Origin: Stereum hirsutum FP-91666 SS1
Taxonomy: Eukaryota > Basidiomycota > Agaricomycetes > Russulales > Stereaceae
Assembly: GCF_000264905.1 (NCBI RefSeq)
Contig: NW_006763139.1
Coordinates: 1,652,313 to 1,716,312, forward strand
Length of the DNA: 64,000 bases
Direction of reading: 5' to 3'
Positions 5,789 through 60,170 of this stretch are shown in pieces (the stretch's first letter is position 1; every line of letters begins with the position of its first letter). A program made the translations under genes and the position numbers. The notes below the pieces were generated by a model. The model saw only the letters and a program-made list of their open reading frames with translations. It did not search any database and was not told the DNA's origin.

Positions 5789-6224
5789 GGGTTCTGAGAA
5801 AGAACAAAGAGCGGACTCGACTGGTCCAAGCGTGCGGCTACATTTTTGACACGCGGGGCAACAAAGGGCAAAACATTCTCCCGCCATGTTGCCAAATGCA
5901 ATGGAAATTTTTGTATAGCAACGGGGCCCGTTGGGCATTTGCAAACTGCCACAGCTGTTGACCATCGCAACCCTCGTGCGGCGTGTCGAGGTAAGCATTA
6001 CACCGTACGGCAGTAATGCAGGCCCCGCTAGAGTCGTCTTGCCTTCACGATACGGTCGGAGGTCAGCATCCTGGAACAATCCTCAAGGGGCCTCATGCGC
6101 TTTTGGAAATGATTTCGATGGGGCACAGCAAACAAATATTCCTTTTCGAACTTCGGCACAGCTGTGCCCACACAAATCTCGATATGAAAGAGGATCATTT
6201 GTACATACATTTCACATTGGGCAC

Positions 6225-8046: not shown

Positions 8047-8216
8047 GGTGGTAGAGAATAAGATACGAGAACGACGGGTGGCGCGGAAGACAATAAACTA
8101 TGTTGGAATCGTGGCCCGCGTCGGTCGGCGTTCGGCTGTTCTGCCGCAAGTGTGGCACTCAGGATGACGTTAATCATGGTTTAGATGAGGATATCAAATG
8201 CGTCAGTCTGTGGGCA

Positions 8217-8223
8217 TATAAAG
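8217..8223 (+). promoter_or_regulatory. TATA-like box of the DsbA-like gene
   Basis: TATAAAG 62-68 bp before the ATG at 8285, inside the 238-bp space shared with the divergent CSN12 gene. Confidence 0.5.
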
Positions 8224-8284
8224 CACAGATCCTCGCTCATCTCTCTCATAAATCCCAATCGTAACCCAAGCATACTGTTACAGT

Positions 8285-9378: not shown

Positions 9379-9533
9379 TTGCTCGTGTGTGGCGCCAGAT
9401 GTGTCGCGTGCCGCGCCTCGGCCGTCGTTGGTCTTTGACGTTCACCTTCATCTCCACCATCTACCGTATCTGCCATTCTTCCCCGCTGCCTGCACGTCCA
9501 CACTCAACCTAACACCACCTTTAAACTAGGGTC

Positions 9534-11074: not shown

Positions 11075-11380
11075 GTCGAGAATGGTCCTTGGTTAGTTGT
11101 TATCTAACTTTGTTTTGTTCTACCACTGGAATGCTCTCCTTGAGCTGGCAGGAATTGCTTGTCTTACCCTTTGCTGGTTGTGTATATACTGTACTTAGTG
11201 GTACTGTTCTAACTCCCTGCTATCTCACGTTGTGATTTCTCTCCTTCTACAAGACATAATTACGAGGATTGAAGCGTGGTTTAATATTGATCCATGTCGA
11301 CATGTATGCATCGGTATACCATAAAATCGGTAATAAAACCTCGTATGAAGATTTCGACACTGAGAACGCGGGTAAAGCGT

Positions 11381-11400
11381 GGGCCACAGGGGAAACGTGT
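11381..11400 (+). promoter_or_regulatory. Promoter word shared by the tandem membrane-protein genes (copy 2)
   Basis: The same 20 bp as at 9359-9378, here ending 192 bp before the ATG at 11593. The rest of 11075-11592 holds the 3' end of copy 1 and this promoter. I see no other gene in it. Confidence 0.5.
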
Positions 11401-11592
11401 ATTTGTCATGCGTGGCGCAAGTCGCGTCGCGTCGGTGCGGTGTTGGTGTGGTGACACAACAGCCGAATGCAGCATGTTCTTTTGCTGGGGTTGATCGGCT
11501 CGTATCTCTCTGCTCTTCCCATCTACCACTCCACTCCTCCCCCACTCGCTGCACATTATTCGTTGGTATCACCCTGGCTCTTGAATACGTCC

Positions 11593-15918: not shown

Positions 15919-16198
15919 GAAGAACGAACGGACGTGGTTTGGGTCCGCGCAGGTCCGCGCCAAACTCAGACGCGATACGCGTCGGGACGTAGAGCGAGAT
16001 AAGATTAGATCCCGGCGTGGTCGAGCGCGTGAGACGAGGGCCTGGGAAGAGGATGGCAGTGCCGGAAACATACAGGCGTCGGGTGTCATTGCAAGCGGGT
16101 TTTCTGTTCTCTTGCGGTCAACTCATACGTACATAAACCCAGCGGATTAGACCTTTCCAAACCACGTCGAACCCGTTGGCATCACAGATTGTCTTCTC
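15919..16198. promoter_or_regulatory. Bidirectional promoter, PET112 / 16199 gene
   Basis: 280 bp between two divergent start codons. It is GC-rich with several CGCG words, including ACGCGT at 15977-15982, and no clear TATA box. Confidence 0.5.
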
Positions 16199-17887
16199 AT
16201 GTACGCTGGTCAGTTTGATGATCCATCGCCTGCCTACACACCGACCGGTGCTCGTGCCGCCACACCTCCGGGAACAAGCTTGTGGCCTCTAGGATTGTAT
16301 GTTCAGGCTCTTGGTTTGTTGTTTCTATGTTCTCAAAGCGCGTTTAACAGGAACAGCAAGAGTAATGGAAAACGGAGAGCACCTGCTGCCGCGAGACATT
16401 TCTCAACACAATCTATAGACAGGTGCGTATTATGACCCGCGGATTCTTGAATCGTAGTTGATGGAATCATGACTCTGGTCTGTAGTCTCGCCACTGCCGG
16501 TGGGGATGTTGAGAAGACGGTCTTCACCTACACACTCACCGCTGGCTCTGCTGAAATCCACTTCATCATATCGTGCGTCATACCTTGCGTGCGCTCTCTG
16601 GCGAAGCTGACTATTCAACTGTGCAGCGTTGAACCTGCACCGGACCATGCGCCACAACAGTACATCATCTTCCTCTCCTTGAAAACAGGGTCAGTCAGCA
16701 CTCAAACTCACATCGCAGTATGCTCATGCCCTTCACCACTGTTAGATGCGTTGAGAGACCACTATGTCAGCCAGTGCCCATGAAGCTCGCCATCAGCCCC
16801 CGAGACCTCCGATTCGCTGTTTTGTGAGCTATCCCTTGATGGATCCAATTTCTCGCTTATACTCACTGTGATGCAGCATGTTTCCCCCGCGGCCATGTCT
16901 TCCCCAGGGATGCCTATGGTCTTTGCGGGTATGGCTTCGAGGGAATGAAGTTGACCATCGAATATTTTCCGAGGACCGACTATGGGTGGGACGGGATCCA
17001 GACTTCTTCTCTATCGAGCATGGTCAGTTTCACATGAGTTGCTACCGCGAGCGGGATACAGCTGATCAATTCCCTAAAATGGATGAATAGCTATGTTTGC
17101 TAGACTAAGAAGTACGACCCAGGTGCGCCTGTCTATCCAGTCGTGTAGTCTAAGACAGGAACTCATCATTCCGGCATGGGTGATTGTTGACTTACTAGGA
17201 AGCACAAGTATATCGCACAGTCATCGGGCGAGCACTTGTAGAGATGATAGTCCGGTATGCCTCTTCCTGCATCGTACTTATGTTTAATCCTGCTAAGCAG
17301 TTGTATACCTAGGTGGAAGCCAGTAACAAATTCAGTATGGAGTTTGAGCCTTGAATACGATGCCGAGGGCGTTGGCCGCGTGCTGTTCTCAGACTTCCTG
17401 GTCCGACTGGAATCATGCAGCCCTCAGAACGTCCAATTCGTCATATAGTTGCGTTATCTGTCCCTCTTTCATTTTAGATGCGTTACTGACCCGCCTTACA
17501 TGTCATTCTATTGATAGTACCATCCCTATCCACTCAACACCACGCGGAGCATCCCATCGACTGCGAATATGGCTACGCGCCCCTCTACCTTCACCTTATC
17601 CCTCTGCACCATACACACCAGCTAATGGGATGGCCCAAAACTCAATCTGTCACCGTATTTGGAGCACAGACAACTTCAAGATCGGGCACGTATTGGACTT
17701 CTCAGCATTGGGCTCGAGGATGGTGATGGGTGTACCGAGCGCCCAGGGACCGAAGGTACAGACTAGTCTCAGCGAGCAGTCAATGCATATCAGGAAGCGC
17801 AGTGATATGGGAGGAAGTACTTGGGACGGCACGGATTCGGTTGGGTCGCCACCAGATTCGATGAACGAGCGGAGGGAGGTTTGGTAA
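16199..17887 (+). CDS. Uncharacterised protein with two similar internal repeats
   Basis: Ten exons keep phase: 16199-16296, 16339-16422, 16486-16572, 16627-16689, 16746-16823, 16877-17022, 17091-17144, 17209-17254, 17313-17447, 17518-17887; 386 residues. Two segments resemble each other: LWSLRVWLR..DHRIFSEDRLWVGRDPDF and HRLRIWLR..CHRIWSTDNFKIGHVLDF, separated by about 100 residues, so the protein is probably two copies of one beta-rich fold. The last ~60 residues are polar and Ser-rich. No known family, signal peptide or membrane segment is recognised. The splice sites of the 17091-17144 exon are the least certain part. Confidence 0.7.
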
Positions 17888-27717: not shown

Positions 27718-29820
27718 ATGTCTTTCACGCTTCCCCCAATCAATGACAACCCCGACGGAGGATGGGGTCCGTCTACATCTAACCTTCCCCAAAACTTCAA
27801 GTTCAAGGACATCCCTTACGCGCCTTACTCAAAATCTGACAAGCTTGGCCGTTTTGCTGACTGGAATGATCTCTCTGGCGATAACCGTCAAGGACAAGGT
27901 CATTCGTCCCAAAATGCTCGCGGAGGAGGCAGAGGCCGTCGCGACAATGCCCAGGCCTTTGGCAGCGGAGCTCCCAGCGCATTCGCTTTCCAAGTCGAGG
28001 ACGAGTCCACTTTCTCTTTGGTCGACAACAAGACGAGCGCTCCTCGTAGGGGTGGGGGTTTCGCCAGAGGCAGAGGGGCAGGCCGTGGAGGCGCTGGTTA
28101 TGGTGCTCGTGCTCCTGCCAGGGGTGGTCGTGGTGGCTTTACTGGTGGAAGAGGTGGAGGTGGCGGCCAGAGAGGTGGTCGCCGAGGGTGGAGAGATTGG
28201 GAGAAGGTCTGTCATATAATATCTCATACCACAAACGAACGCAGTATTAAATCTCAGGCCCGCACAGAATAATCGCACACGCGAGTCGTCCGTTGCTATC
28301 GATCCAAGCTGGCAGATGCTGGAAGAGATAGAATTCCATCGTCTGTCAAAGCTCAGGCTCGAAGTCGATGACCCCGAAGACCTGTATGTCCAACCTCATA
28401 TGTTCCATCTTAGCCAATGACTTTTGAATTGACAATGGATTGACAGCGAATCGTATGGGCGACTTTTCGCATACAACAAGACCTTCGATCGTATTACCAC
28501 GAAGACTGAACGGCCACTCCAACCAGTGGACCGCATCAAGTACAATACCACAACCTCTGATGACCCAGTCATCCAGCAGGTGCGTTTCTCAGATGCATCG
28601 CTTCCATCTTCGATCACTACTTACTCTCCGTCTAGTTGGCATCTAAAAACACTGCGACTGTGTACGCTACGGATGTTATTCTGAGTGTCCTGATGTGTGC
28701 ACCTCGATCAGTTATTCCTTGGGACATTGTCATTGTCCGTGAAGGAGATAAGGTCTTCCTCGATAAACGCGACGGAGGGCCTTTCGACACGGTTACCGTC
28801 AATGAAAATGCATCAGATCCTCCTCAGGATCCCACCCCTCCCAATCCCAACAATCCCACAGAGAAAGCTCCGGAGGCTCCGTCGATCAACTCTGCGACAT
28901 CGCTATCTCTCGAGGCCACTTACATCAATCAGAACTTCAGCTTCCAGTCGGTCACCGAGACCCCGCCTCCCCCACCCGTCGACTTCCAAAAGCCGAATCC
29001 TTTCTACGGTCCGGATGAAACTGAGCCTCTCGCATCTTGCGGTTACCGATACCGCCTGTACGATCTCGGAATCACCGAAGACGAGGATATTAAGTTGTGC
29101 GTTCGTACCGAAGTCGATGCGTACCTTCCGGGTACCGGCAACCCTCTTGAGGGACACGGCCTGACTACGATTCGTGCTTTGAACGAATTTGATCCTCGTG
29201 CTCCGGGTGCGGGTGGTGCTCCTGACTGGCGGTTGAAGCTCGATTCCCAACGTGGAGCTGTCGTTGCTACAGAGATGAAGAACAACAGCTGCAAGCTGGC
29301 CAAGTGGACGGTTCAGAGCGTTCTCGCAGGTGCTGAACAAATGAAGATTGGGTATGTCCACGGATCCACGCTAGGATCTTCTCACCACTCACCACTGACC
29401 CTACTTTTCATCAACGTCTAGGTACGTCTCACGCGCCAACCCGCGTGATAACACTCGGCACGTCATCCTGAGTACTGCATCAATGCGGCCAACGGATTTC
29501 GCGGCCCAGCTCAACGTCTCGCTCGCCAACGGATGGGGTATCGTTCGCACCGTTACCGATATGTGCATGAAGATGCCCGAGGGCAAGTACGTCTTGGTCA
29601 AGGACCCAAACAAGGTGAGAACTTCCAGCCTACCTATCACCGCTCTTTTGGAGCGCTATGGTTCTCGCTCATCACTTCTCTTTGTTGATGCGTTCCTTCT
29701 CACTGATGCCATTTGTTCTAGCCTGTTATCCGTCTATACGCTGTGCCCTTAACGGCGTTCACCGGAGAAGATGAGGAGGAGGAAGGTGTTGGTTCTGATG
29801 GTGAAGACCTTGAGGCGTAA
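27718..29820 (+). CDS. EIF3D: Translation initiation factor eIF3 subunit D
   Basis: Six exons: 27718-28206, 28268-28383, 28447-28579, 28636-29351, 29422-29614, 29722-29820; 581 residues. It starts MSFTLPPINDNPDGGWGP, with the conserved PYAPYSKSDKLGRFADW. An RGG-rich insert (roughly residues 95-160) precedes RTRESSVAIDPSW. The cap-binding core contains YGRLFAYNKTFDRI, IPWDIVIVREGDKVFLDKR, a Pro-rich loop, ASCGYRYRLYDLG and SRANPRDNTRHVIL. The C-terminus is acidic. In eukaryotes eIF3d contacts mRNA and can bind the 5' cap for selective translation. Length is normal. The 3' splice site at 28267 was chosen because the nearer AG gives an early stop. Confidence 0.96.
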
Positions 29821-29968
29821 GATGTCGCGCAAGGTGTATAGTACGTCAAAACGGCACCATAGGGTCGGCGTCCGTGTCGATGTGGAGTGTGATCTGTTGG
29901 AGGCTGTAACGCTTGTGAATGAGTTGTGCAACAACTGTTGTTTGTATTCAAGAATATGTGAGGACATG

Positions 29969-31302
29969 TCATTGGGAACTGAGCAAAGTCTCCACAGCAC
30001 TCTCCGTATTAGAACTGTCGGGGATCATCAGATATGACATGAAACAGATGATCGCAAGGGACAACCAACCTGCGTTGCAAGGCGGCCACAATGACTTCAC
30101 GTTGGTACCCCGGGAACATCGAGGTCAATTGCGAGATTTCGCCATCGCTGGGCACCCGCAAGCCCGTTGCGTTTCGTTCTGTCCTCCCGGTAAGCTCATT
30201 CATCCACTCTCTCATAACTGAGGTACCCGAAGATGCTCCTGCCGCCCCATCAACTTCTGGGGCGGCCTGTGGCGCCGATGGATTTCGTGCTGTGGTGATC
30301 ACTTCATTATCGAGCTCCGTAGATGTGGAGGCGGGAGCAGTACGTTCCTCAGGAAGAGCACGATTGGTTCGTCGAGGCGCGCGGGTGGAGCCAACAAGGG
30401 GCAGGAGGAAACGTGAGGAGATCTGCACGGCCCACGGTGGTAGCCTGTATGTCTTGAGACTGGCAATATCCGTTCGGTAGATTGCACCCGTGAGGATGCC
30501 AATCGCCGCGGTCACTGTGGACGCCCAGGGCTGGCTTATGGCAAGCTATGTCTTCAAAGTCAGTATAGCTCTGAGAAAGTAATGATATGGTCGCACCTGA
30601 AACGCGAGGATGTAAAGAAATATCTTGTTCGTTACGATGACCCCAAAGATGCGGAACTGGTACACTGAAGGCACACGCCTTGAGTACTGGTACAAAAGAT
30701 TGAAGATCAATGGCGTCGGTCCAGAAGGGATATGGTTGAGTCCAAAACGGTGGAATGTGAGCAAGAACAGAAACTCGAGAATGGTGGATACGAGGGTAGA
30801 AATCAAGGCACACGACTGTAAAGGGAGCGCATCAGACACCTTCATCATTATGCAGAGGTATGGAATGGAAGACTCACAGCAAATTTGACGCTGCCGAATT
30901 GTCGCTCAAGTACAATTCCGATGTTGAATAAGAGCACCTCCCAGACAAAGAGTTCGCTAGAGTTTGAATATGCCAGATCATGGACGAATAATCGCCAGTA
31001 CTGGAGATGCCTTAGGTTAAATTTGGAAGAAATTTGCTCGGCCAAAACCCACCTGATGGTGACGAGAAAGATGGGGAACCAGCTGTGAAAAAGCAATGTA
31101 CCTACTCAGATGCCAAGTTCAGCCTCTTGAACTACCTGCGAAACCATACCTGAAGAGGGAAATAATGTTTTACGTCGAATATAGCGACAGAGATGGATGT
31201 AACGGCACAAGCCATCATCAGACCTGGAGCGAAAGTGAGTAGGGAGGCGCGTATTGTAAGTTTGAGTTTACCCTTGGTCACAGGTGCATGCTGGAAGGAC
31301 AT
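29969..31302 (-). CDS. dsc2: Dsc2/UBAC2-like rhomboid-fold protein with C-terminal UBA domain
   Basis: Seven exons: 31302-31272, 31223-31150, 31082-31053, 31000-30878, 30839-30597, 30545-30070, 30014-29969; 340 residues. The N-terminus MSFQHAPVTKGLMM and the HHQYWRLFVHDLAYSNSSEL / LLFNIGIVLERQFGSVKFA blocks are those of UBAC2 and fungal Dsc2, rhomboid pseudoproteases with several membrane segments. No rhomboid Ser-His dyad is evident. A Ser/Thr/Pro-rich cytosolic linker leads to a UBA domain (SQLTSMFPGYQREVIVAAL through ESAVETLL). Dsc2 is part of the Golgi/ER Dsc ubiquitin ligase that activates the sterol regulator Sre1 in fungi. It ends about 150 bp from the convergent EIF3D gene. Confidence 0.85.
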
Positions 31303-32087
31303 TTCTCCGTTGTAGACTTCGCCACAAGTACGAGTCGAGCGAGAGAGAAAGCTTCTCAAAGTCTTGTCGAGTATTCTTCGCTGGGATGTTGCGTTCACCC
31401 CCGTAACTGAGCGAGGGTCTAGTAACTATCTAAGCCCCGAGGACCTGTGTGGCCCGAAAAGACGGTGAACTGACGTTCTTGGTGGCTCGGAGTATGGAAA
31501 TTGTTGGCAAGCGCCACGTTGACACCATGGCCCAACCGGAGTCATCCGCGCCACAATTTCTGTGGCGCTGGTTTGGAAGATTTACTTGGTGATTGCACCA
31601 ACATCATCAATATTTATATCCAACCGACGTAAGGCGAACCTGCAGCCAAATATGTCTCATCTTATATACCATATGTACACACAGCGCGGGACGGTCCACG
31701 GTGCGCCTTGATTGGTTTTTACGAAACTACTGTGCGCGCGCTTCTCCTGTCCATATTCTTAGACCGAGTCGTAAGTTGGTTGATTCAATGCCGTAGCAGG
31801 TAACAGTAATTATCTGAATCAAATACAAAAAGAGTCACTCGTGTGAGTTTTCCGGCATCGGTGTTCAAGTTGAAATAATCCTACAGCCCGAATTAGTGGA
31901 CTGGTCGCTCAGTAGAGCGTGTTCAGAGAGAAAGCCATCTAGTGACCGCCCCCCACGAAGGTCCATCTCTGATGGATCATGAAACTGGAACGGTGAAAGA
32001 GGTGGAGCACCATAGCCCAAGCGAGTCAGAGTTGAAGGATAATTTCTAGACTACACGGAACATACACAGGATGGGCTTCAACTGCGA
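31303..32087. other. Intergenic; Dsc2 promoter and reductase 3' end
   Basis: No gene seen. A short perfect hairpin (8-bp arms 31548-31555 and 31561-31568) with a GCGCCAC/GTGGCGC stem lies about 250 bp upstream of the Dsc2 start. Confidence 0.5.
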
Positions 32088-33974: not shown

Positions 33975-35353
33975 ATGACCTCGACAATCACTTTTCCAGC
34001 GATAGAATCGCAGCGCGCCAGTCAAGTGTCCTTGCTTTCCCGGCACGCCGCGAGCGCACTCGAGGTTTGCGAACTCGTGTACGGGACCGCAGACAGCACT
34101 TCATGGGACGTTCTCGAGCGATTCTACGAATCTGGTGCTGGTAAGCAAACCTCACCTACTTTACTCGGACCTTGACCCAGGCTGACCAGCCTGGGCAACA
34201 TATCCGGTTGTTTCGTGTCTTATGCCCGCACGTTACAGTGTAAGCTCCATTCATACTTATTGCGAGCATAGCCTTGCTCCAGGATTAGTCTTTCATTTCC
34301 TGACATAACGACAAAAAGCTACGAAAACCCGTTTGTCACGGCGACGTCTCGTAGAGTTACGCGCGACCTGTTTTCGCTATATCATCAAATATCACACCTG
34401 GATCTCCCGAAACCGTTACCTACGCTATGCCACATTCTCCGCACGGCAGCAGGACGCCCGTCCAACCTATCGGGGAACTCGTGTTTCCCGATCATACGCA
34501 CTTGGACCGAAATGGGAGATGTATGCGAGAGTGAAAGCTTTGGTCAGTCAAAACAACTTAAAACATAGGCTATACTTCCCCGAGTCATGGCCATCTCCGT
34601 CCATCTAAATTAGCCCTTCGCTTCGCTGACTGTTATGCTCTTTGCTAGATCACCACAAACGAGCCGTGGTAGAACATATCTTGCATGTCCTATTCCTACC
34701 GGACATACATGACAACACAGCCGACAATACACGCACGCACGACGGAAATGAGCCTCACAGCTCTCATCATCATGATCACTCTGGCGACTCCCTCCATCGA
34801 CCCCTCTCTCACCTCTCGGTCTCGTCAGATCTTAGTGGCGGATCGTCGTCGCGGCCTACGCTTCCGCATTCCCCTGCGTTGCCCGTCTTCGGCACCGATC
34901 TGACCGTCCCCAGTCCGCTCCACTTCAAGTTCCACATCCTCACGAAACTTGAATTTAATGAGCAAGGCAGAATTGTCCATCACCGCGACTTTTGGGATAT
35001 CAGCAATGTGATGCAGTTATTTCCCGGCGGGCCGCTTTCCCATTGGATAGGCACTAGGCTTGCCGCACAAGGCCTCTCGATGGCCTCTCGCCTTGGCCAT
35101 TGGGCCTTGGGAGGGGTAGGAGCACTATCGGGAGCCCGACTGGCGGAAGACACGAGCAATCTCACACGCGATCAAGAAAGCTGTGGTGGCCAAAGAAAAC
35201 CGTTTACTCGCTGACTTGGAACATGATGGCGTCACCACTTGTACGATACGCACGTTGGACTCTGTCTGTATTATCTTTGACTCGTGCCTGCGTAATGGTC
35301 CAGAGCCTCGACTACGAACACTTCCCAGTAAGCTCCAGCGACTATATGCGTAA
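33975..35353 (+). CDS. NTF2-like (SnoaL-type fold) conserved fungal protein
   Basis: The start MTSTITFPAIESQ and RFYESGA..YENPFVTATSR resemble the opening helix and Y-x-N-P strand of NTF2-like folds. WTEMGDVCESESF, HHKRAVVEHILHVLFLPDI and FKFHILTKLEFNEQGRIVHHRDFWDI are the later strands. Exons 33975-34140, 34319-34542, 34649-35115 and 35177-35353 are supported. Between 34140 and 34319 the phase does not close with a single intron; a 25-nt exon at 34190-34214 would fix it. The intron 35116-35176 is required to leave a frame that otherwise runs to a stop at about 35214. A His-rich linker (SSHHHDHSGD) is present. No enzyme activity is claimed. Possible frame damage is discussed in the findings. 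Confidence 0.65.
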
Positions 35354-36171
35354 CGTTTGACTTCGCGTGCTGACTTCGAGAAAAGGCCTCCGGACATTTA
35401 TGATTCTATTTATTTGTGTGATTCGTGGGCGGCTGCTACTGTTCGTCCTTCTACTTATGTCGTGTTTACGGAACTTCTATGCGCTTTGATCCTATTGTAA
35501 CAGTACTGCTTCCTGAGACGTACGTTCTCTTGGTTTCTCTCATGCCCTTTCCGTTATCTTAATGCAATATGCACCCGTTGATTTCCGCCGAGGCTTCCAC
35601 CCCGCCTTCTCTAAAGCTACTCGCGGATCTATCTCTAGATCCTCCTCAGACATCATACATTCCAAATCCCGCTCTCCGCCACCTCGTTTCGTATCTCGCC
35701 ACCACGCATACCGTCTGGTAGAACGGATGAATCACTTATCACGGCGCCATTTGCAGCCATGTCAGACAGAGCCCCACGGCCTCGCAGCGGGCGTCAAACC
35801 CTAAGAGCTCGCACCGCCTTCTTGATCTGTCAAGACCGCTCCATTCACAGCTTAGCGTCAAGCGCCAAAATGTGAACTCTAGAACTGTAACTCGCCCAGT
35901 TGGGAGCGCGTGTCCCCTGCCAGACGCAGGAGTAATGTGCTAAGAATGGACGGATTTGGACTCGGATATCCAATCCCTTCGTGTTTCATGTCCTCGTGGA
36001 GGTGATGGTTTTCCTCCACGCACCGCCGACCACAAACAGAAGCCACGATACAGTCAGTAGTAGCATATCGATCCAGATCTGCCACTGGTATGCCACACTT
36101 AGACTTCTGCAAATGGCCGGTGAACCAACCCACGGCGCAAGCGAATCCACAGACAGGTGATTTCGACACAG

Positions 36172-36186
36172 ACACACACACACACA
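36172..36186. repeat. (AC)n microsatellite
   Basis: About seven AC units. Confidence 0.9.
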
Positions 36187-36730
36187 GTAATACATCTGAA
36201 ACGCTCCCCTCGAGAAGATGCATATGCGAGCGTAGGGTGGTTGGGATGACTTCTCTCCCGGGCTTAATTATGGGATGGGGTTGAATGCTCCAAAGCCAAG
36301 CTCACCGTCTGAGGACCCAACAAGATCACGATGCACAGTCGGTGTCATAGATCGGATCCCATGCTACATACGTATAGTACTCTACTAGCTCCAGCCCCTA
36401 TCACGCGCTCGCGCTTTTCCAACCGTTCAGGCTTCAACGTTCGACGTCGGCTACTCGTTTTGATTTCTGAACTCCGACCTGGAACCTGAGGCCTGACCGT
36501 TGGACGAGAGCTCTTCGGACGACTTCGTGATGAGTCGATGACGACTCCTTCTGTCTTCTTTCAAAGCGTAAAGGCTTTAGGTTGGCAGATATCTGTCATG
36601 CCATTGACATTGCGCCACAATCCGCTATTGCAGTGCAGCGCTGAACATAGTCCAGTCCGCCGATGATCGTTTTGAACGTTGGGCCCCTTCCGGGGAAAGG
36701 GGATGCGCGCATAAACAATGGGCTCATACT

Positions 36731-36763
36731 GTATGTATGTATGTCTGTATGCATGTATGTATT
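36731..36763. repeat. (GTAT)n microsatellite, imperfect
   Basis: GTAT units with a CTGT and a GCAT variant inside. Confidence 0.85.
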
Positions 36764-37136
36764 CCGTCCGAGGGATGTGAATATTAATACGCCATGTACG
36801 CCACTTGTCTTGATCCAAGTTCTGGAGCACAGGCTTGCGTGTACGACTGTATTGTATTGCACAGTATACGAGGACACTGCCGGTTCACTACTATCCATTG
36901 TTCTCATTGTGTACACTGTAGTACACTTGCACCACAAAAAAAGCCGCCCGCAGTCTCGGTAGGACATGGAGACCCTGTTATGGATCTGATGCCTGCCCAG
37001 GTCGAAAAGGCCTCCGGTTGAGCAAAGCCCTCAGAATGGGATGCCAAGTGTGCTTTGAATCGTTAAGTGGCCGGCCGCCGAGATGAGATTCGTCTCGGAA
37101 GCGATTACAGTCTCGATGCGTTTCCGAAGACTCTGA

Positions 37137-37160
37137 TACCTTACCTTACCTTACCTCACC
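37137..37160. repeat. (CCTTA)n short tandem repeat
   Basis: Four pentamer units, the last one altered. Confidence 0.8.
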
Positions 37161-37477
37161 ATAGGCCTCCGACCGAAGTTAGAAGGAGAATGGCCGTAAG
37201 GACCACAAGTCCATACTGGTCTTTTGCTCGCCGAACAGTCTCAGATCTCATTGACAGGCCTCCTCCGGCGATAGTAGCTCGAGGTCCACAGTATACTCTA
37301 TGTAGTGTAATGTGGCATACAGGCTGAGTGATCGAACTCCTCCGACGTCAACCTTGTAGATCTAACTAACTAACTCTCTGACTCTCTAACTCGGGCTGAG
37401 CGACAATGGTCAAACGATGCAAATGGCACTGTACCTGTATGAACACCAGTCGAGTCGCCGAATCACTCTAGCTCGGC

Positions 37478-37577
37478 GTTTCGTTTCCGTTTCCGTTTCC
37501 GTTTCGGAGTCGAGACCAGAACCAGAAACAGAAACAGAAACACTCCTACCTTCCCTACCTTCCCTACCTTCCCTACC
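37478..37577. repeat. Compound hexamer repeat with mirror arms
   Basis: (GTTTCC)n at about 37478-37507, then (AGAAAC)n at 37522-37541 that can pair with it apart from one base per unit, then (TTCCCTACC)n to 37577. The first two runs could fold into an imperfect hairpin. Confidence 0.75.
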
Positions 37578-38761
37578 CGCTTCCAGGTTCATCTTAGACT
37601 AAATCCTTCTCCGGGACACAGCTCTGAGTTCCCCCGGAAAGGAAATGGGACTTCTCCTGGCAGCACCGTAATGGGATTTCCTAAACACCGTAAACAGCAC
37701 GTCCATATCCGCTTCTAAATCTGTGTATGAGTCGAACGCATCTCTAAGTATGTCGAACCGTAAGATTTGACAGTAAGATATGAAAGCTTGAGATGCCGAG
37801 GACGTCCTCGCGGCCAGGACAGGAAATCAAGTATCATGTCGAAATTGTCGTATCGTTGTGTCAAGCCGGAAACCATTTCGCTCCGAATCTCTCTCGATCT
37901 CTTCCTCTCCCTAGATCGGGAATAGAGTGCTCAAGCCTCAGATGCATCATACGTACGATTAAGTATGGCTATGCGAGCATACAGCAAATCCAGAAAAATA
38001 TAGACGTCGACCTTCTCCTCTCGTCCAATCTCGCGCGGTCGGGCTGTCCGAGTCCGACTGACATTGACAAGGACATCGGCGGCCGTCACATGTACAGAGC
38101 GCGATCCACAGCGGTAACCAGAACGAAACTTGAAATGGATCGGCCATCGACCGCGTGGAGCGAGCACGATTCAGCAGTTAGAAGACTCCGGCATTCAGTA
38201 TGCAATATTCATGACACTCATGGCAGACGAGATCGAAAGAGCTCAGCGATGGGCAATTGCGATTTCTACCTAGCGTTACATGAGGCTTTTATGTATGTAT
38301 CAGAGTGACAGCGATAAGTATTGACCGGTAAAACGTGAACGCGAGGGGGATATGAGGGATTCGTTGTCCAAGAAGCAAACCAACGGACCAGGGGAAGAAG
38401 GGCAAGAAATAAAATAAGTAAAAGACATAATGACCAAACAAACAAAATCGGGCTAAGCGACGCCCGAACGGGAGTGGAGAGATGGGAGACGGGGGAATAC
38501 GTAAATGCAAAGGGGATGATACAATGCCGTTGGAGGAGTACAGATGAGAAAATCGGAGCGTCGTGCTTGGCCCAGGCAAACCGACGGGGGAAAGAGCTGA
38601 GTGATGCAAAATAAAAGCGGGAGCGACGAGCACGATTTTCACGGACCAATAAATAAATAAAAAGAGGCAGCAGCAACAGACGGTATATCACGAGACAGGA
38701 GACAGTATAGATACGCAGAGACGTGAGAGGAAACCGACCAAAAGAATGACAGCGCCGTGCA

Positions 38762-40370
38762 CTAGACGACAAGTGACTGACCCTCGCTCGCGTTGCCTGG
38801 CGACGACGATGACGACAAGTCAATAGCGAGCGATTGCCAGCTCTCATGCTGGCCATCGTCGGGAAGTGAGGATCGTCGGAAAGGCTCGCCAGTCATCGAA
38901 GGGGAGCCGTAGTCGGGGGTAGTGGCAGACTTGTGGGGCATGAGGTGGCCGGACTGGAAGGACGCAATGTCTGACAGCCCCGCATTCGGCAGGCGAATCC
39001 CTCCGTCCCGAGGTGGCGATTGGGAAGAGCGAGCGTCGAGCGGGAGAGAGAAGCTGGTCAATGCCGGTGAATTGAACGACGACGGAGGACCGGACCCTGA
39101 CGACGAGTAGACAGACACTGAATTATGAAAGAAGGTCAGACAGATGAAGAAGACTGCCAGAAAAGGCGATAAGCTTACCTGAATCGTCCCAGTCGCTGCT
39201 CGAATGCACCGAGCCTGACGACGACGACACGGAAGCTCTCCGATCCCGGGGCATGATAGAGTCGCCGTCGGACTCTTTCTTGACGAGCGGGCTCGGCTTG
39301 GATGCCGGTGAGCCAGGCACGGCTGCCTTGGGCTGCTTCCGCGACTTGTTCCCGGTCCGCAACTCGTCGAAGCGGAGAGGCCGTGGCCGCAAGTGGGTGC
39401 GCTCGTAGAGACCACACTTGTTGCAGACGATTTTGCCCGGGTTGAGCGTCGACCTCCGCCAGCTGGGAGGCTCGGTCTGCGAGCAGTTGAAGCACCGGCG
39501 ACGCAGAGTCGGCGTCTCTTTTGACGAGGCGTCGTCCGTGTGGCGCACGGGGAGGCCGGTATGGGGAGAGAGGTAGGTGACGGGGTGCATCGGACTGGAG
39601 GAAGCGGGGCGGTAAAGACAAGTCTGGGACGGGACGATGACCGGTGCAGTTTCTTCTAGCTTGACATGCGGGTCTAGGGGATCAAACTCGCGGAGTGACG
39701 AGGCGGGAGAAGACGAGACAGAGGAGCCCATATCAAAGCGGTTGGGGATGAATTGGTCATGCGAGTTATAGGGGTGGATGTGGTGGGAGTGGTCCATCAT
39801 AGACAGAGGCTCGCCGTAAAGAGATTCGGGGCGCGAGAAGGGGCTCATGTACTGCTCGTTCTCACGGGGGAGGAAAGAGGGGAGCGAGTACGGGAGAGAG
39901 TCGTCCCTGTCCTGCCTGACGTACGGATAGGTTGCGCGGCGCATGGAGGTCATGTTCTCCTGCTGGAGGAGCTGCTGCTGGGTCTGATATGACTGGTCAA
40001 CACGGTGCATACCGGAATTCCAGTCGTTGCCGACGTGCATGGGCTCGGCGTACTCGGGCTGGTGGACGTGCTGGGAGGAGGCGAAGTCGTTGTCGTAAAG
40101 CTCCTGGAGCAGAGAGCCGCGGGAGTTGTTCATGGGGAGGGAGAGGGGCGAGCCGTTGTTGGACATGCCGTGCCAGATGGAGTGGCCCTCGGGAGCGACG
40201 GTGTGATCGTCAGCCATGTTGTCTGCGAAGATGTTGGGTACTGGGTCGAGCTCGACTTTGAAGTGAGCTGGCGAGGGGATGATATAATTGTCTGAGGTGC
40301 GAGGAGAGGGGGTACGAGGGGTCGACGCGTCTGAATAAGTGGTATAACCGTCGCAGGAGAAAGCGTCCAT
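38762..40370 (-). CDS. GATA-type zinc-finger transcription factor
   Basis: Two exons, 40370-39179 and 39117-38762; 515 residues. One zinc finger begins at residue 293: CFNC, then a 19-residue loop with the WRR core, then CNKC, followed by the basic GLYERTHLRPRPLRF tail. The usual fungal loops are 17 or 18 residues, so this belongs to the longer-loop group. The rest is low-complexity: Gln-rich (YQTQQQLLQQ), Pro/Ser-rich and an acidic C-terminal part, as in transcription activators. A 50-nt 5'UTR intron (40430-40381) ends 10 bp before the ATG, and this sets the start at 40370 because the longer upstream frame does not splice in phase. Mushrooms use GATA factors in nitrogen control, light response and fruiting; which applies is unknown. 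It is flanked by long gene-poor DNA. Confidence 0.9.
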
Positions 40371-41458
40371 CGAGGCAGGGCTGTGAGGGAGGATGAGCGT
40401 TGTGTGGCGTGGCGAGCAGAAGGGGCGTACCTTGAGAAGAATGTAGTCGGAGAGGAGGAAAAGAAGAGTTAGAAGGAGGGGGCGGGAGGATGCGTCCAGG
40501 GAACCATCGGAGGACGACGGCGTTCGTTTTTGAAGGCCTTGAGAAAGCAGAGGCACATCCACCGTCGCTCAGGGTCCAGTTTGCACAAGTTTGGCCAAAC
40601 CGGTGCGCGCCAAACAACCCCCAAAGCCTCCCTTAGCTTCCCTTTTCGGGCCTAGCCTTGCGCCGCGCCGTCTCCCTGGTGTCCGTGCACAACGACCTTC
40701 GCTTTTTCCGCCCCTCGTCCATGGGAAGCTCGAGCAGGCACAGCCCAGTTCATACGGCATCCTTCCCCCTCATCTCCTTTCTCCCTCTTCTCGCCCTCCC
40801 CTCCCCGCTCCCCTCCGTTTTCTCTTCTGTCTTCTCGACGCTTGTCCCCGTCCATTATTCCCCTTCTCCCGTACCCAGCCCAGTAGCACTTCGCATTAGG
40901 CGCCCACCACTATCGTTCTTATCACCCCCTCCGCCCAATTTCATATCCCCATTTACGTACCCTCTTTCTTCTTTCACTTTACCCACCCGAGTCCCCAGAG
41001 GCTGCCCTTTGTTCATTACCGCGTACGAACCGTAATTCATCCGTACCCCGTCCTCCACCGGCGGACACAGATCCACCCAAAACACAAGTGCTCTCACACC
41101 GCCCAGCCTACGCGAATGCCCGGACACATGCCCCCCACATGACACACGTTCAATGAGCCAGAGTGGCGATGTCCTCCGCTTCGAACACCCACGAAGACGT
41201 TTACAGCACCCTTCCTCGTTCCAGACAAAAAAGCTCGCACAGGGCCATGACCTCAGTCCCTCTTCAACGCCCTGCTTCTCCAGCGCCTCCCGTCCTCTCT
41301 GCTGCCTATTTTACATATCGCCTCCGACTATCCTGCGCTCCTCTCGCTCGCACCCAGCTGACTCTGCTGTGACACACTGAACTGACGTGCTGCGCTCTAT
41401 TTCCACCGTGACGATGCGAATCCCCAAGTATACAGGATTCATTCCAGCGGTGCGCTTG
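40371..41458. other. GATA-factor promoter and 5'UTR region
   Basis: Contains the 5'UTR intron of the GATA gene and a strongly pyrimidine-rich plus strand (about 40700-41000), common in basidiomycete promoters. The open frames here are composition artefacts. Confidence 0.6.
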
Positions 41459-42036
41459 TACGGTCGACGACACTGATCAGGTCACCTTTCGACCTCTCAC
41501 GATCAGTCCAGCCCAAAAACTCTGCCCCAAGCGCTATTTTCACGAGAGCTAAGTCGACATTTAGCGCCCAAATGACAGATTCTGTCGAAGTTTCTTCCAA
41601 TTCAGGAGATATTGGGTCGCGTCGCCCTACTTCCTGGGAACAGTTGTGAGCATAACGAGTATTCGCCGCTCAAAAATGAGATGGCAGATGTCGACGAGAC
41701 TCGGAGCTGTGCAGCCCAGCCTATGCCGGATTTAATCCGGTTCAGAACAACTCAGGATCTCTGAGCTTTCGTGGCTGAGTCCTTCCTGGCAGGTCACATA
41801 ATTCACATTCTTAGGTGTTGGATCACGTATGAATATGAAAAACTAACAAAAACAGGTGTAAAAACAAAGTAAAAGTAGGCCAAAGGGGCCACCGCTACCA
41901 GCCCTGGACGAGCGCTGACGATTGAAGCTTATTATGACAGACATCTGACAGGTGCCCGTCCGCCGGTGGGCATGGCTGGAGTGCTCGACGTGTCGACGCA
42001 GGTCGAAAGGTGACCTGATCAGTGTCGTCGACCGTA
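41459..42036. mobile_element. Non-autonomous DNA transposon (MITE-like)
   Basis: Perfect 37-bp terminal inverted repeats at 41459-41495 and 42000-42036 (outer end TACGGTCGACG) are bordered exactly by a 5-bp direct repeat, GCTTG, at 41454-41458 and 42037-42041. The whole unit is 578 bp with no transposase frame. Inverted termini plus a matching target duplication are the definition of a DNA transposon insertion; the perfect termini imply it is young. Superfamily is not assigned: few groups make 5-bp duplications, and the transposase that moved it is not in this window. Confidence 0.85.
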
Positions 42037-45000
42037 GCTTGGCGGTGAAGTTTAGAAGTGGGGCACAAGAGCAGACAGACGCCACCGCAGGCAACAGGTT
42101 GAGTGACCGACAGCCACGACCTTGAAAGCGCTGAACTAAACAAGGCATTTTATTCGCTCAGAGCGCAACTCGGGCGTCTACGATAGCAGAGCTCCTCTCC
42201 ACGTCTTGCGCCGCCCAAATACTATACTGATCGGGTTGAGTCACCCAGGACACCACTGGCAGTACAGCAACGTACGGCGTGAGTCTCCGCCCAACGCTTC
42301 CTTGGTTTCCTTTAGGGGCGAGGGCGGCATTAGCCAAACGATCCTTACTTCCGCGGAGTCCTGTAACGCAGAGACGCAACCACCCCTCCAACCAAAACAA
42401 CGAACTGTCGCTCCCATTGCCGAACTCGGCACACCTTTGATTTTGACTCCATCGTCGTCCTTCGCAGCTTGCCTCGCCTCTCGCAAACCGACTGCCTCTA
42501 TCGTCTCGGCGCGACTCCCACCGGGCGAAGAATGGACGCCGCTCGAGATGCCAGCGCTTGTCACTGTGCGTGGTAGAGAGGAGGGATTCTCAACCGAAAT
42601 AGTACATGTACACAGATGCCGAGTATGGACGCGGCCCATCGTCATCGATTCATGGCGCGGTCCGTTTCTTTCTCCGTTCTAATAGTTCGTCGGGCGCAGC
42701 CTAGCCTATGCCATTGTGTTATTATGTTGCCAGCCCAGCGTCCCGCTGTACGTATGTAGGCACCGATAGAGTTGTTCGCACAGTGCCGTCCAGGAATGAA
42801 CATTAGGATGCACACAGGCTCTCCGAGTCGTTCGAAGTTATGCACCGACACAGCGACAACTCTAATTTTTCTCTATTGAAGAAGCACACAACGCCACGGA
42901 GGTTCCCGCCCCCGACGCGGACGCGCGAAATGCCCGTCGTCCGACTCTTCGAGCTCGATCTGGGAACGTCGACAACGTAGAACGTAGGACGCAGAACGCA
43001 CTCATGGACATGGATGGAAGGGAAGGTCCGTGCGCGTCGTTCGATGCCATGTTCCATCTGTTGGATCGTGACAAGTTGACCGCGAATGTAATGCAATGTA
43101 AAAAAATTCAATTTATTTCTCCACGGCATTAAGTACTGCATAATAGCATATGGTTGCTTTCAGGATTCACGGATCCTCCCCGTGCCAGCCACAATGTCCG
43201 TGTGCTCCGCTCGACGCTCGTTAGAGCTCCTGGCCGTCAAGAGGATCCGAGTGGCACCTGCCTCTCGCCTGTCTACTGTACCTGCCATACAATACTCTCC
43301 GATCGCGACAGAGGTTCCATCGTCCACCGTCCCCGTTCATCGTACCACTCGCTCTCCATATCACTCCACGATCCCTCAGGCTCTGTCCCGTCATATCTTC
43401 CGAATCCAAACCGTTCCACTTTCGTTCCAGGGCACAACAATAAAACAGCTACAGCTAAAAGTAATCTCGTTCTCGTCCACATGAGCGTCCTGAACGTTTG
43501 AAACCGTGGAGTGGGAGATGATTGGACGATCGAGAATTCAAAACGAGCGCGAAGGACGAGAGCAGAAGGGCGAGAACGAGAGCAGAAGGACGAGAGAGGT
43601 GCTTCTTCCTGATGCGCCCCCAGCTCAGTTCGAGTTTTTTTGCGCTGTTTTGCGTTGTTGTGTGATCGGTCGGCCGGTGGGTCTTTTTCGTGCGTATTCT
43701 GCCAAGTATGATAGATGAGTGTGCGGCATCCTCCGCTTCTCGGCATATGGGACGTTACGCTGCACGCATGAGAACGTCGAAAGGTTAAAGTGGGCGAAGG
43801 GTGGTGGGGGACCGGGGGGTGCTTCTGAATTTTGCGGCACACTGTTACTGTATCGGTGCCTTGGTCCACTTGAGATGGTTTCATGTGTTGCGATGGGTCT
43901 TGCGCACGGAGAATCATGGGCTTGCTATGTTTGCTAAACATACAGTGAAGAAGTTTGGACACTACTCTGATACTATAGCTACGGAGTCAATGTCATCATT
44001 CTGAATCTGTGGATTTGGAAGTGTTGGATGAGTCGATGTGCGCAGAGATCCGTTCATGCAGATGTTCGTTGCACTGACGGGATCTAAAGCTTGAAGATGG
44101 GTAGGGCCGCAGGACGCCACAAAGCGACAACGGACACACGTGTTCCACCGTTCCCTTGTGGCTTGACTGACCTTGCGGGGAAGTGATAAAAATAACAAAA
44201 CCAAAATTTCAACTGGACGAACGTTACACTCCGTGTCAAGAGCCAAGCTCCGATCCGTCTCCTCCTTTCCTTGCTTTCCTTTCGTCTAAAGGGGCAACGA
44301 AGTGGTGCTACATTTTATATCCCCACTGACAATGCTCCTGACCGTACGAGTCCGTGCACGTCGGTACTGTATGTAGTATGCATGTGTACTGCAGATCCTG
44401 TATTACCTCGGAATCTCACTCTGCGCGACCCTGGCCGAGCATGATATTGCTCAAATATCGCTCAAAGTGGATGCCGACGTGTGGGTGTGGATGTGGATGC
44501 GGCCCACACTGCATCTTGTGGATAATTCCGGTTTGTATGGGTGGGTCCGTACTTACAACTTACAAAAATGCTCGGCCCGTCGGATTCTGACGGTGAGGTA
44601 CAGCAATATGAATGCGTTTAAATTTCAAAGCGGAAGCAAACAGATGGAGGTTTGTGACACTGACAGGACCTTTTGCACACTCGACGACGTTCGGCAAGTG
44701 GGTCGGCAGGCTTTGCGAGCACGTGTTGCCATAAATAAATATACGTCACCGGCGAAGAAATCGGGAATCGGGAAAGTCCGCCGGCCTGGCCATGGGCTCC
44801 GGAGGCGAAATGTGCTCAGCCTTGAACCGACAACCGACAACCGTCAACCGTCCGTCGGAGGCGAGAAATTAGAATCGACTCGGCTGCAGGTTGTCCTTGT
44901 GGGATCGTCTGGGTCACATATCGATATCGAGCTCAGACCTCAGGCGGTATCGGAGGGATGTCGATGAGAGATTGTTTGGGTTTTCTTGGCGATTGGACGG

Positions 45001-57050: not shown

Positions 57051-57228
57051 GTTCTAAATAACTATTGACGGTGGTACTGCCTTTCTCAAAGAGGCAATCT
57101 ATTCAGCCAATATGGATGTGAGTTCGATGCAGCACCGCGACCGCATCGAACTCACATCCATATTAATGTTTTCTTGGCCTACGAGTGCCCGTGTGACGTC
57201 GTGTCGATGTACGGTGCAGCGACATGAC
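57051..57228. repeat. 178-bp palindromic repeat, left inverted copy
   Basis: Contains a perfect hairpin: 22-bp arms 57109-57130 and 57143-57164 with a 12-nt loop. Similar in the opposite orientation to 58923-59100 along its whole length, from GTTCTAA at the outer end to GCGACATGAC at the inner end. Confidence 0.8.
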
Positions 57229-57620
57229 GTCCTCTCCTCCTTTGGTGGCTCCATCGTCGGCTCTATTGTCGGTGGCTTCCTCCTGGCTAATCTTGATTGG
57301 TACTGGAACTTGTCGGTGCCACTTGTCTTTGGCTCTGTCGTCCTGCCTATCTACCTACTTCTTGCTTGTTCTAGAGACGTTGCTAAGTGCGATCTTGGAT
57401 AAGGAAGCGAAGCGGAGGAGAAAGAGTGCGAGGAAGGGCCGTGTTAGTAGCGAGAAGGTGAACGAGATGGACATGGTGCTGTATGGACTCGGGGAATTGA
57501 AGGAGGAGAGGTTCTTGATGAAGGAGATTCCACGACTTGGGCCCGGGCACAGGCCGGTAAATCTATTACCACCCAGTGCATGGAATGTTACGAGTATTGA
57601 CCTGCGTTGTACTTGATTTG
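57229..57620 (+). pseudogene. Major facilitator superfamily transporter relic, copy 1
   Basis: GSIVGSIVGGFLLANLDWYWNL plus VFGSVVL and LDKEAKRRRKSARKGR are the transmembrane helix 4-6 and central loop signature of fungal polyamine/drug MFS exporters. The frame must shift near 57365 to join the two parts, and there is no start, N-terminus or further helices. A diverged copy lies inverted at 59930-60170, sharing even the downstream intron-like stretch. Confidence 0.7.
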
Positions 57621-57779
57621 TGATGTTCACACGCGAAGCGGCTGCTCATGAAGCAAGAGATACTGCAGCAGATTGCCAATGACATCGGTCACCTCGATCT
57701 CATGGAGAGCGATAGATACGACGCTTCCTGATGATCCTGCGTCGACTCCCGCCATTGGCCCTTCTGCTAATTATCCTCG

Positions 57780-58245
57780 GCCAGATCAGGCCATGTCTGA
57801 ACGTTCTTCGACATCGCCGCTGCCTGAGCTTTCTAGACACGATACACCTTCGTCCACGGACTCAGGCGAGACCAGCTCAGGTGTCTTGACGGAGGGAAAG
57901 TTATCATCTTCGCCTGCATACCCGGACATGTCATACCCAAGCATACAAGTCGAAGTTTCTGACGTTGCTCTCGACGATCCCAGTTGTATATTGAGCGACG
58001 CCCCACGCGAACATGTCGTACTCTTCCTATCTCTTCTCTCTGGTTTCTCTGACGGTCTTGTTTGCTTTTTCGACAATGCCCTCTCGCCCGTGTACAAGCA
58101 ATGGGGCTTCTGCAGCATCGAAGTCGATTTCTTGTTCATCCATACATCTCCGCTATTCTTTCCATCATCATTCCAGCCTTCATGCTGGCGCACATGTCGT
58201 GCTCATATAGAATCCCTGGGTACGGCCATGTTAGATTTAGATAAT
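57780..58245 (+). pseudogene. Major facilitator superfamily transporter relic, second half
   Basis: LSLLSGFSDGLVCFFDNALSPVYKQWGFCSIEV resembles the later membrane segments of the same MFS family. It continues only after a frame change into AILSIIIPAFMLAHM near 58145. The preceding Ser/Thr-rich stretch may be part of the same decayed gene. Confidence 0.55.
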
Positions 58246-58351
58246 TAGAGTATATAGATTATTCCAGACTTTCTGGCCACACTTTGACACTCGAGGGACA
58301 TTAAATGAGATACTATACTAGATCAACGATGAAAGGAGCAGTACTACACAT

Positions 58352-58830
58352 CTACTCGCTGTCTTCTGCCTCATTCTCCTTACGGGCTTCGTTAGGATCC
58401 TCCTCCTCCTCGTTATCATCGTCCTCTTCCTCGCCACCCTCTTCACCGTGGACAGATCGAGTAGAATGAGTGGCCGCTGATAGAGGGTTTGCAGGTCCAA
58501 GACCCAGACGAATGCAAAACTCATTGCACCGATGCTGGTCAACAAAGGCTTTGAGACCAGCTTCACCATGATCGCCAACTCCGCTGTCTCTAAAAGTCTA
58601 AAAGAGAAGAGTCTCGTCAGTGACTGTAAATATCGCAATCAATCGCAATGCAGCACGTACCCATCAGGAGAGTGTGTCATAAGGTCAAACAAGAGATCGA
58701 TACAAACAAAAATGAGCGAGAACGAATTTGGGTGCTTACCCGGTTTGATAGACCTTGCCGAGGTCGTTGCGATACTGGTATATGTCGAAATGGGCCTCGG
58801 TGAAGTACGTACAGGACAGACTTCGGCTCT
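58352..58830 (-). pseudogene. 5'-truncated gene fragment of unknown family
   Basis: Two exons join in phase: about 58830-58740 (TEAHFDIYQYRNDLGKVYQT) and 58589-58352 (AGLKAFVDQHRCNEFCIRLGLG, then an acidic tail EEEDDDNEEEED to a TAG stop). The intron is 150 nt with GTAAGC and TTTTAG ends. Codon character is good, but upstream the sequence runs into the repeat at 58923-59100 with no start, so the N-terminus seems lost. I do not recognise the family. It may still be a real gene with undetected upstream exons. Confidence 0.45.
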
Positions 58831-58922
58831 CTCAGGGCATGGCTTGAGTCTCACAGCTAATACTTCTCAAGGTGGGAATCCGACAAGAAAGTCGTGGCAG
58901 GCGCCTGTAATCACAAAACAAT

Positions 58923-59100
58923 GTCATGTCGCTGCACTGTACAGTGACACGACGTCACTTTATCTCACTCGGGCGCTCGTAGGCCAAAAAAAAACAATCT
59001 AGATGTGAGTTCGATGCAGCACCAGGTCTGCATCAAACTCACATCTTGATTGACTGAATGTATTGCCTTCTACGATAAGGCGTAGATCATTACTTAGAAC
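58923..59100. repeat. 178-bp palindromic repeat, right inverted copy
   Basis: Arms 58995-59019 and 59028-59052 (25 bp, two mismatches, 8-nt loop) form a hairpin sharing GATGTGAGTTCGATGCAG with the left copy. The similarity covers both flanks, so this is a whole-repeat match and not just the hairpin. Confidence 0.8.
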
Positions 59101-59450
59101 AGCTTAAGACCGTCGTGACCGAGATATCGCCGTTTGAGGAGAATCTGCAAGAGGAGGTCATCACTGGGGCAGTAGTCCATAAGGAGGGATATGTAGGCTC
59201 CATCGTAGTAAACAATGTGGTGGAGAGTTACGACGTTTGGGTGAGCGGATGCGAGTTGGTTCAGGGTTATCTCCTAGAGATGTAGATGGCGTTGGCGGGA
59301 AGAGTGGCGTATCTGTGAATGGAAGAGGCACGCGTAGGATCGTGGCTCCGCGGAAGTGGAGGTGGTCTCGACGGCGCGATAAACAATACCGTAACATCCG
59401 TAGCCAAGGACGGAGACGAGCTCGAGTGCACCGTCATCAATGAGCGATCC
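59093..59450 (-). pseudogene. Serine/threonine kinase N-lobe relic
   Basis: Minus-strand translation gives a Gly-rich loop (VLGYGCYGIVYRAVE), then ITLNQLASAHPNVVTLHHIVYYDGAYISLLMDYCPSDDL and KRRYLGHDGL, the beta1 to alphaE part of a kinase. An in-frame TAG (59276-59274) and the missing ATP-binding Lys region interrupt it. It stops where the right palindromic repeat begins. No catalytic loop follows. Confidence 0.65.
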
Positions 59451-59929
59451 GAGGGCTGGTGGGCGAGGGGGGCCATAGAATATAGAGAGGAAAAGAAGAA
59501 AGAAAACGGAGAGCCTGAGCCTCGTCGGAAGGAGCGAGAGGTGGACTTGGGCAGATCAAAGCAGTAGTAGATGCGAAAGCAGCGAGTTGACTTTACGTGT
59601 GGAGGACATGATGACGGGGAGGCTTGGGCGAGTCCACCATGAGCGTAACACGTTCCGGGCGAGAGCAGACGGCATGGGTGGAAGCTGGATGGGCCATACT
59701 TGTACTGCAACTTCTGCATGGCAGACTGTGACACCTGGGACCCGACGCCGCGATGCGTCAAATCCTACTGTGTCCTTTAGGCGTACCATAACCATCCTAT
59801 TGGTGCGAAGTCTGAACGAGCATATGTATAAGTGGACGTCACGTCGCGGTAGCAAAGGCCAAAATTCTGCCATCTTTGCAGTAACGCGACATCATATCCA
59901 GTGTCCTGTTGCATCAAAGCAAACTTCTA

Positions 59930-60170
59930 AGTACGATGCAAGTCAATATTCGTAATATTCCATGCACTGGGAGGTGATAGACTTACCGGCCTGGGCTCTG
60001 GCCCATGACAACGTCTCTGGAACGAGCGAGAAGTGAATAGACAGGACGACACCACCGAATACAAGTTGCACCAAGAAGTTCCAGCGCCAGTCGAGGTTGG
60101 CTTGGAGGAAGCCGCTGACAATGGGGCTGATGACGAAACCATCGACAAAGGCGAGACTCAGGACGAAGAC
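59930..60170 (-). pseudogene. Major facilitator superfamily transporter relic, inverted copy 2
   Basis: ISPIVSGFLQANLDWRWNFLVQLVFGGVVLSIHFSLVPETLSWA is the same MFS helix 4-6 region as at 57229-57620 but on the opposite strand and better preserved. The GGCCGGTAA-containing stretch after it matches copy 1 beyond the coding part. No upstream helices in frame. Confidence 0.7.

Follow-up and report, generated by a model that had tools for sequence, protein, structure and literature searches.

Shared ends of a 578-bp terminal-inverted-repeat element and a 39.5-kb stretch of the Stereum hirsutum genome, the latter a candidate giant Pack-type element

In this work, a 578-bp insert in a stretch of 64,000 nucleotides of Stereum hirsutum DNA (the window) was found to share its terminus, TACGGTCGACGACASTGATCAGGTCACC, with a stretch of 39,515 bp on C1 (1205644-1245158), which is bounded by inward-facing copies of that terminus at 1205644 and 1245158. 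Taken alone, the 578-bp insert is ordinary: it is a recently mobile non-autonomous element with terminal inverted repeats (TIRs), a low-copy MITE. The interesting part is its giant relative. It is probable that, beside the short non-autonomous element, the giant inserted as one unit and that its interior was stitched from unlinked host-type genes; from its sequence, we read it as a Pack-type element moved in trans. We hypothesize that the 578-bp insert would be a short member of a TIR family with a 5-bp target duplication, moved by a transposase that acts in trans and is not encoded in the insert, and that the giant would be a member of the same family that inserted whole. The giant interior would have been built by Pack-type capture, with pieces of host-type genes stitched in from unlinked loci, probably as transposition breaks were mended with unrelated DNA that was copied or joined. 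The interior also contains ordinary transposons, one of them with Plavaka-like ends and the other a MITE of 440 bp. For the wider statement, that a TIR family with 5-bp duplications moves units of 0.5 to 39.5 kb and that the giant strings together fragments originating in four or more unlinked places, in several cases end to end and in some from diverged (old, lost or foreign) copies, we see about even chances.

The preliminary description, made from the window alone, had claimed perfect 37-bp inverted termini and a 5-bp GCTTG duplication, and both are seen at 41459-42036 (Table 1). Over their 37 bp, the two termini are reverse complements of each other with 0 mismatches, and further inward the ends pair imperfectly out to 69 nt (78%). 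The first 22 bases of the terminus, with up to 3 mismatches allowed, occur twice in the window, both times at the ends of the insert, where 0 occurrences were expected from 100 shuffles. Furthermore, 22 of the 30 exact inverted 16-mer pairs found in the whole window at distances of up to 3 kb come from these ends. The longest stop-to-stop frame inside the insert has 70 codons, so no transposase is encoded, as had been proposed. Elsewhere in the window, imperfect inverted repeats (77-92%) form two sets at 57092-60005, their arms separated by about 1.7-1.8 and 2.3 kb; they may belong to another transposon or to a gene duplicated in inverted orientation. The location upstream of a GATA gene was also borne out: a minus-strand ORF with a GATA finger was found, and the insert lies 891 bp past the upstream edge of this stop-to-stop ORF. 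The lineage given, Agaricales, was wrong, as S. hirsutum belongs to the order Russulales. The closest named relatives of the GATA protein include Artomyces and Multifurca, which fit this order. As to the suggestion of a MITE family not yet described, no report of the TACGGTCGACGACASTGATCAGGTCACC terminus or of a Stereum MITE family with 5-bp duplications was found among the papers listed in the literature searches, although the lineage attached to the suggestion does not hold.

Table 1. Features in and beside the 578-bp insert (positions in the window) and blocks inside the giant (el, positions in the element, with locus coordinates in brackets)
Feature	Position	Strand	Match	Basis
Target-site duplication GCTTG, left copy	41454..41458	.		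sequence
Left 37-bp terminal inverted repeat, TACGGTCGACGACACTGATCAGGTCACCTTTCGACCT	41459..41495	+		sequence, genome copies
Interior without coding capacity	41496..41999	.		frames, genome copies
Right 37-bp terminal inverted repeat	42000..42036	-		sequence
Target-site duplication GCTTG, right copy	42037..42041	.		sequence
Stop-to-stop ORF of GATA-finger gene (PF00320), context only	39126..40568	-		GATA finger match; homologues in Agaricomycetes
Giant, block in two pieces	el 6111-7684 (L023 1854-3427)		C1:374140-375731	blast
Giant, 3' part of Vps5-type gene	el 7686-8412 (L023 3429-4155)		C7:1064164-1064825	blast
Giant, block in two pieces	el 8413-8643 (L023 4156-4386)		C9:1761403-1761711	blast
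Giant, repeated transposon, Plavaka-like ends CATCA..TGATG	el 9422-12173			blast, ends
Giant, multi-copy family	el 14406-16661 and 28792-31858		C11, C2, C13, C31, others (70-81%)	blast
Giant, block	el 16663-17086		C10	blast
Giant, block	el 17110-17371		C24	blast
Giant, 440-bp MITE, GTCACGAA both sides	el ~27878-28313		C20 (94%)	blast, flanks
Giant, block	el 35128-35653 (L026 1171-1696)		C1:1515679-1516227	blast
Giant, block in three pieces	el 35651-38425 (L026 1694-4468)		C1:1615149-1621133	blast

A blast comparison of the insert with the genome revealed a 100% identical 578-bp copy on C10 (355954-356531), with GCATC on both sides, and a second full-length 578-bp copy with 98.4% identity on C31 (50792-51369), flanked by CTGTA and CTGTG. 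Together with the intact 5-bp duplications that flank two of the three copies of 578 bp, these agree with the recent insertion claimed earlier; the identical copy also contradicts the possibility, raised there against a transposon, that no other copy exists anywhere. A diverged copy on C13 (102428-102996), first met by blast with the 578 bp and completed by the 22-base terminus search, has the same base as the window element at 80% of aligned positions, and a 529-bp element on C3, revealed by the terminus search, agrees with it at 47%. Among the six loci with both ends visible, the 5-bp flanks agree at all five positions at three (GCTTG in the window, GCATC on C10 and CTAGG on C1) and at four of five on C31, while no target duplication was recognisable in the 5-bp flanks of the C13 and C3 copies. 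The terminus search of the genome gave 21 hits, against one for a reversed-pattern control. Sixteen were assigned to the family, and five with 3 mismatches (C5, C9:680601, C10:505167, C10:785183 and C14) were left out as probable chance. Apart from the window, the terminus is present on C10, C31, C13, C3, C6 and C16 and at both ends of the giant; in viral contigs it has no exact match. The family occupies at least about ten loci in 46 Mb, including the three near-identical 578-bp copies. The 578-bp element therefore has the short length, the TIRs, the fixed-length duplication, the lack of a transposase and the several copies of a MITE, but not the high copy number. Copies with the same ends and 5-bp duplications, which had been expected in large numbers, do exist, identical, near-identical and diverged, but they are not many. 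On the basis of the identities (100% and 98.4% versus 80% and 47%), there seems to have been one recent burst of the 578-bp type beside older relatives with hardly anything in common except the ends.

Family ends without a clear mate were observed at C31:36650 and on C6, C15 and C16, the last as two partial hits. The 3 kb examined at the end on C15, which departs from the terminus at 3 of 28 bases, contain neither a mate nor a long ORF. On C6, an AcademH-like element sits 101 bp inside the family end, and the second end is absent from 15.4 kb inward. The right end of the member at C31:36650 is interrupted by a small inverted-repeat element at C31:37140-37313 (L027 7141-7314), with arms GAATAGTGAGGTCCAGGCC.

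The C1 stretch was missed in the preliminary description, whose account of the ends holds for the short element. The stretch contains no N, and CTAGG stands directly outside both of its ends. Its inverted arms are 415 bp each and identical at 412 of 415 positions; each carries only its outer end, and each is the sole full-length match of the other (735 bits) among the matches listed, the rest of which reach at most 70 bp. The giant itself is present in one copy among the matches listed. We infer from the one 5-bp duplication and the unique arm pair that the giant moved as one unit. As in Pack-type elements, TIRs and a target duplication here surround host-gene fragments that match loci elsewhere. 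Of 38,686 interior bases, 15,144 have a match elsewhere in the genome among the matches listed, with repeats and nested transposons counted, and about 61% have none. The gene-like blocks are 72-87% identical to their best match and the multi-copy family 70-81%. The single copy, the large unmatched share and the divergence of the matched blocks would also suit an interior of ordinary host DNA with old segmental duplicates, in which related ends inserted twice, each arm independently of the other. However, near-identical inverted arms that carry outer ends only and have no other full-length match among those listed, and CTAGG outside both ends, where 5 bp would agree by chance once in 1024, argue against this origin, which we regard as very improbable.

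The matched blocks of the giant lie close together. According to the blast coordinates, six block joints meet or overlap within 0-3 bases (L023 3427/3429 and 4155/4156; L024 2504/2506; L026 1696/1694, 3019/3018 and 3531/3534), of which L026 3019/3018 and 3531/3534 fall within one source region. The junction between the fragments matching the unlinked loci C1:375 kb and C7 was read on both donor sides and shows one unmatched base, with no shared microhomology seen. The C1:1619/C1:1616 junction, read in the same way, shows two unmatched bases and likewise no shared microhomology; since its pieces belong to one source region, 3 kb apart, a deletion, or an insertion that the source acquired later, may explain it instead of capture. 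The Vps5 piece includes only the 3' part of the gene and aligns across its introns, therefore the capture took place at the DNA level. The sole control for mosaic content, a small one of about 3.3 kb of outer flank, has no match elsewhere. A weaker relative of the captured C1:374-376 kb gene was also noticed at C1:365.8-366.7 kb, about 8 kb away and in the opposite orientation. In the giant, the 120 longest of the 245 ORFs of at least 70 aa were compared with Pfam as unspliced frames. Only Vps5 and alpha-kinase were obtained at E 0.001, seven weak families were added at E 0.1, and no transposase, recombinase or polymerase was found among these 120. The 373-aa ORF has a single protein match (100%). 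The 276-aa ORF also has a single one (99%, across 55% of the ORF), the gene model STEHIDRAFT_164422 of S. hirsutum FP-91666 SS1, which lies in this C1 locus.

The transposons inside the giant (CATCA..TGATG element and GTCACGAA-flanked MITE, Table 1), as well as the AcademH-like element inside the C6 family end, would be consistent with the 578-bp element being an ordinary low-copy MITE and the 39.5 kb a small fold-back of two 415-bp arms that was later filled by nesting and rearrangement, so that nothing giant ever moved. On the other hand, visual inspection of some 105 bases on the inner side of each arm revealed neither inverted ends nor a duplication of one large inserted unit. Moreover, transposons cover only part of the matched interior, and the abutting gene fragments are not transposon insertions. 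We consider such later filling unlikely.

With only 72-87% identity in the gene-like blocks, the present matched loci may not be the direct donors. For the Vps5 fragment and the resident gene, dS was 0.34 and dN 0.067 over 134 codons (ratio 0.20), and for the C1:375-kb gene fragment dS was 0.56 and dN 0.12 over 77 codons (ratio 0.22), with the second exon (31 codons) left out as its peptide mismatched the resident copy; these values come from short exons and one simple method. A duplicate of the resident gene that decays freely would be expected to have a ratio of about 0.5, so ratios near 0.2 suggest that most of the divergence arose while both copies were coding. The fragments matching C1:1615-1620 kb, whose true frame is uncertain, give a mixed picture: they have a ratio of at least 0.47 in 22 of 23 frame segments, many of them with stops, and one stop-free frame segment of 61 codons has a ratio of 0.19. 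The two fragments that keep their frames would also fit a giant assembled in another fungal lineage, which reached S. hirsutum through introgression or horizontal transfer; however, lost paralogues or an old capture give the same ratios, and those of the C1:1615-1620-kb fragments point in no clear direction. This origin appears quite unlikely. The Vps5 and C1:375-kb frames join out of phase at their junction, and a selected fusion of the two is therefore unlikely. In a Pack-type giant, some blocks may derive from gene copies that are lost or foreign, and other blocks from resident loci.

From the fixed 5-bp duplication, the long TIRs and the absence of coding capacity, a DDE transposase supplied in trans would be expected to drive cut-and-paste movement. 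The autonomous partner predicted earlier did not turn up: among the 120 ORFs scanned in the giant, the KDZ transposases, the MULE and the AcademH-like element of C6 and the surroundings of the C15 end, no element with family ends and a transposase gene was found. The 36 KDZ matches listed are all more than 50 kb away from any family end. The C6 MULE (C6:1381715-1386722; L065, L064), with MULE and SWIM domains, has in self-comparison its own 126-bp TIRs, which start with TGGGTAACGCGGCC and are unlike those of the family. The pair of DUF6589 and helicase genes on C6 belongs to a separate nested element with its own 111-bp TIR. This AcademH-like element (C6:1387591-1394292; L064, L034), with a DUF6589 protein and a split helicase, is inserted in the family end, and its direct repeat has 7 to 9 bases, ACCCGCC or possibly AAACCCGCC. 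The direct repeat beside the C6 MULE, GAAAG on both sides, is at 5 bp unusually short for a MULE and rests on one copy. Because of this repeat, our first guess for the family is an enzyme of the Mutator type that makes a 5-bp duplication, a tentative one to which we give slightly less than even chances. In the cited passages, MULE target duplications have 8-11 bp (PMC6446971), which does not match the 5 bp of the family, and those of the IS256/MuDR group 4-10 bp (PMC10045372). AcademH, with 9-10 bp (PMC10045372), and KDZ (Zisupton, Kyakuja, Dileera), with 8 or 7 bp (PMC12730594), do not match either, although KDZ transposases are present in the genome. CMCT elements (CACTA, Transib, Plavaka and kin) are described with mostly CA..TG termini and duplications of 2-5 bp, with TGT..ACA in PlavakaA and CATCA..TGATG in PlavakaB (PMC12730594); the duplication length alone would fit, but the TACGG..CCGTA termini of the family do not. 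The 5-bp duplication of hAT5 (PMC12730594) has the same length as that of the family.

Compared with MITE-type elements, the 578-bp element is alike in its lack of coding capacity, perfect TIRs, fixed duplication and near-identical copies, and differs in its low copy number and in having ends common to a giant. In Marasmius oreades, hAT families of 597-631 bp without an internal transposase section are reported, and the library of that fungus holds elements of up to about 42 kb, whose kind is unstated in the cited passages (PMC9674265); this speaks against the size of the giant being unique among mushrooms. Starships are giant fungal elements (PMC12134995), reported also in Tremella (PMC13066641). 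They and the C1 giant are both very large fungal mobile DNA with cargo, but Starships carry a tyrosine-recombinase captain gene, of which the 120 longest of 245 ORFs of the giant gave no Pfam match, whereas the giant is built on TIRs and a 5-bp duplication. Polinton/Maverick elements have a 6-bp duplication instead of 5 bp, and none of their genes (DNA polymerase B, integrase, packaging ATPase) was found by Pfam in the same 120 ORFs. Helitrons, which are not known to have TIRs or target duplications, resemble the giant in being large and carrying multiple gene fragments, but the giant has both TIRs and a target duplication. Gene-capturing Helitrons of maize, with multiple gene fragments, reach 39 kb (PMC6431247), and such Helitrons are also described in Pleurotus (PMC4289320).

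The closest likeness is to the plant Pack-MULE and Pack-TYPE elements (PMC6431247, PMC8903248, PMC13317346, as far as the cited passages describe them), which are non-autonomous and have TIRs, target duplications and host-gene fragments captured at the DNA level. No report of a giant Pack-type element in Basidiomycota was found among the papers listed in the literature searches. The first reported Pack-MULEs are given as not above 7 kb (PMC6431247), which is why the giant is of interest. Its host is a fungus, it has 39.5 kb versus at most 7 kb, and its duplication is 5 bp instead of the 8-11 bp of MULEs. Plant Pack-CACTA elements have a 5-nt duplication as well, but other termini (PMC8903248). 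If the giant is confirmed, it would suggest that natural TIR elements are able to move some 40 kb, well above the Pack-MULE sizes (PMC6431247). Giants could have been overlooked, since one Pack-TYPE tool, packFinder, takes only end pairs 300-15,000 bp apart (PMC8903248), and a giant Pack-type class in Basidiomycota, if true, would be liable to be missed by such size-limited searches. A plant review of 2026 considers that an undiscovered route for the capture of unlinked gene fragments by DNA transposons might exist (PMC13317346, section 7). The C1 giant bears on this question, as several captured blocks of unlinked origin adjoin one another in it, enclosed by element ends that are almost identical, and its host is a fungus that rots wood.
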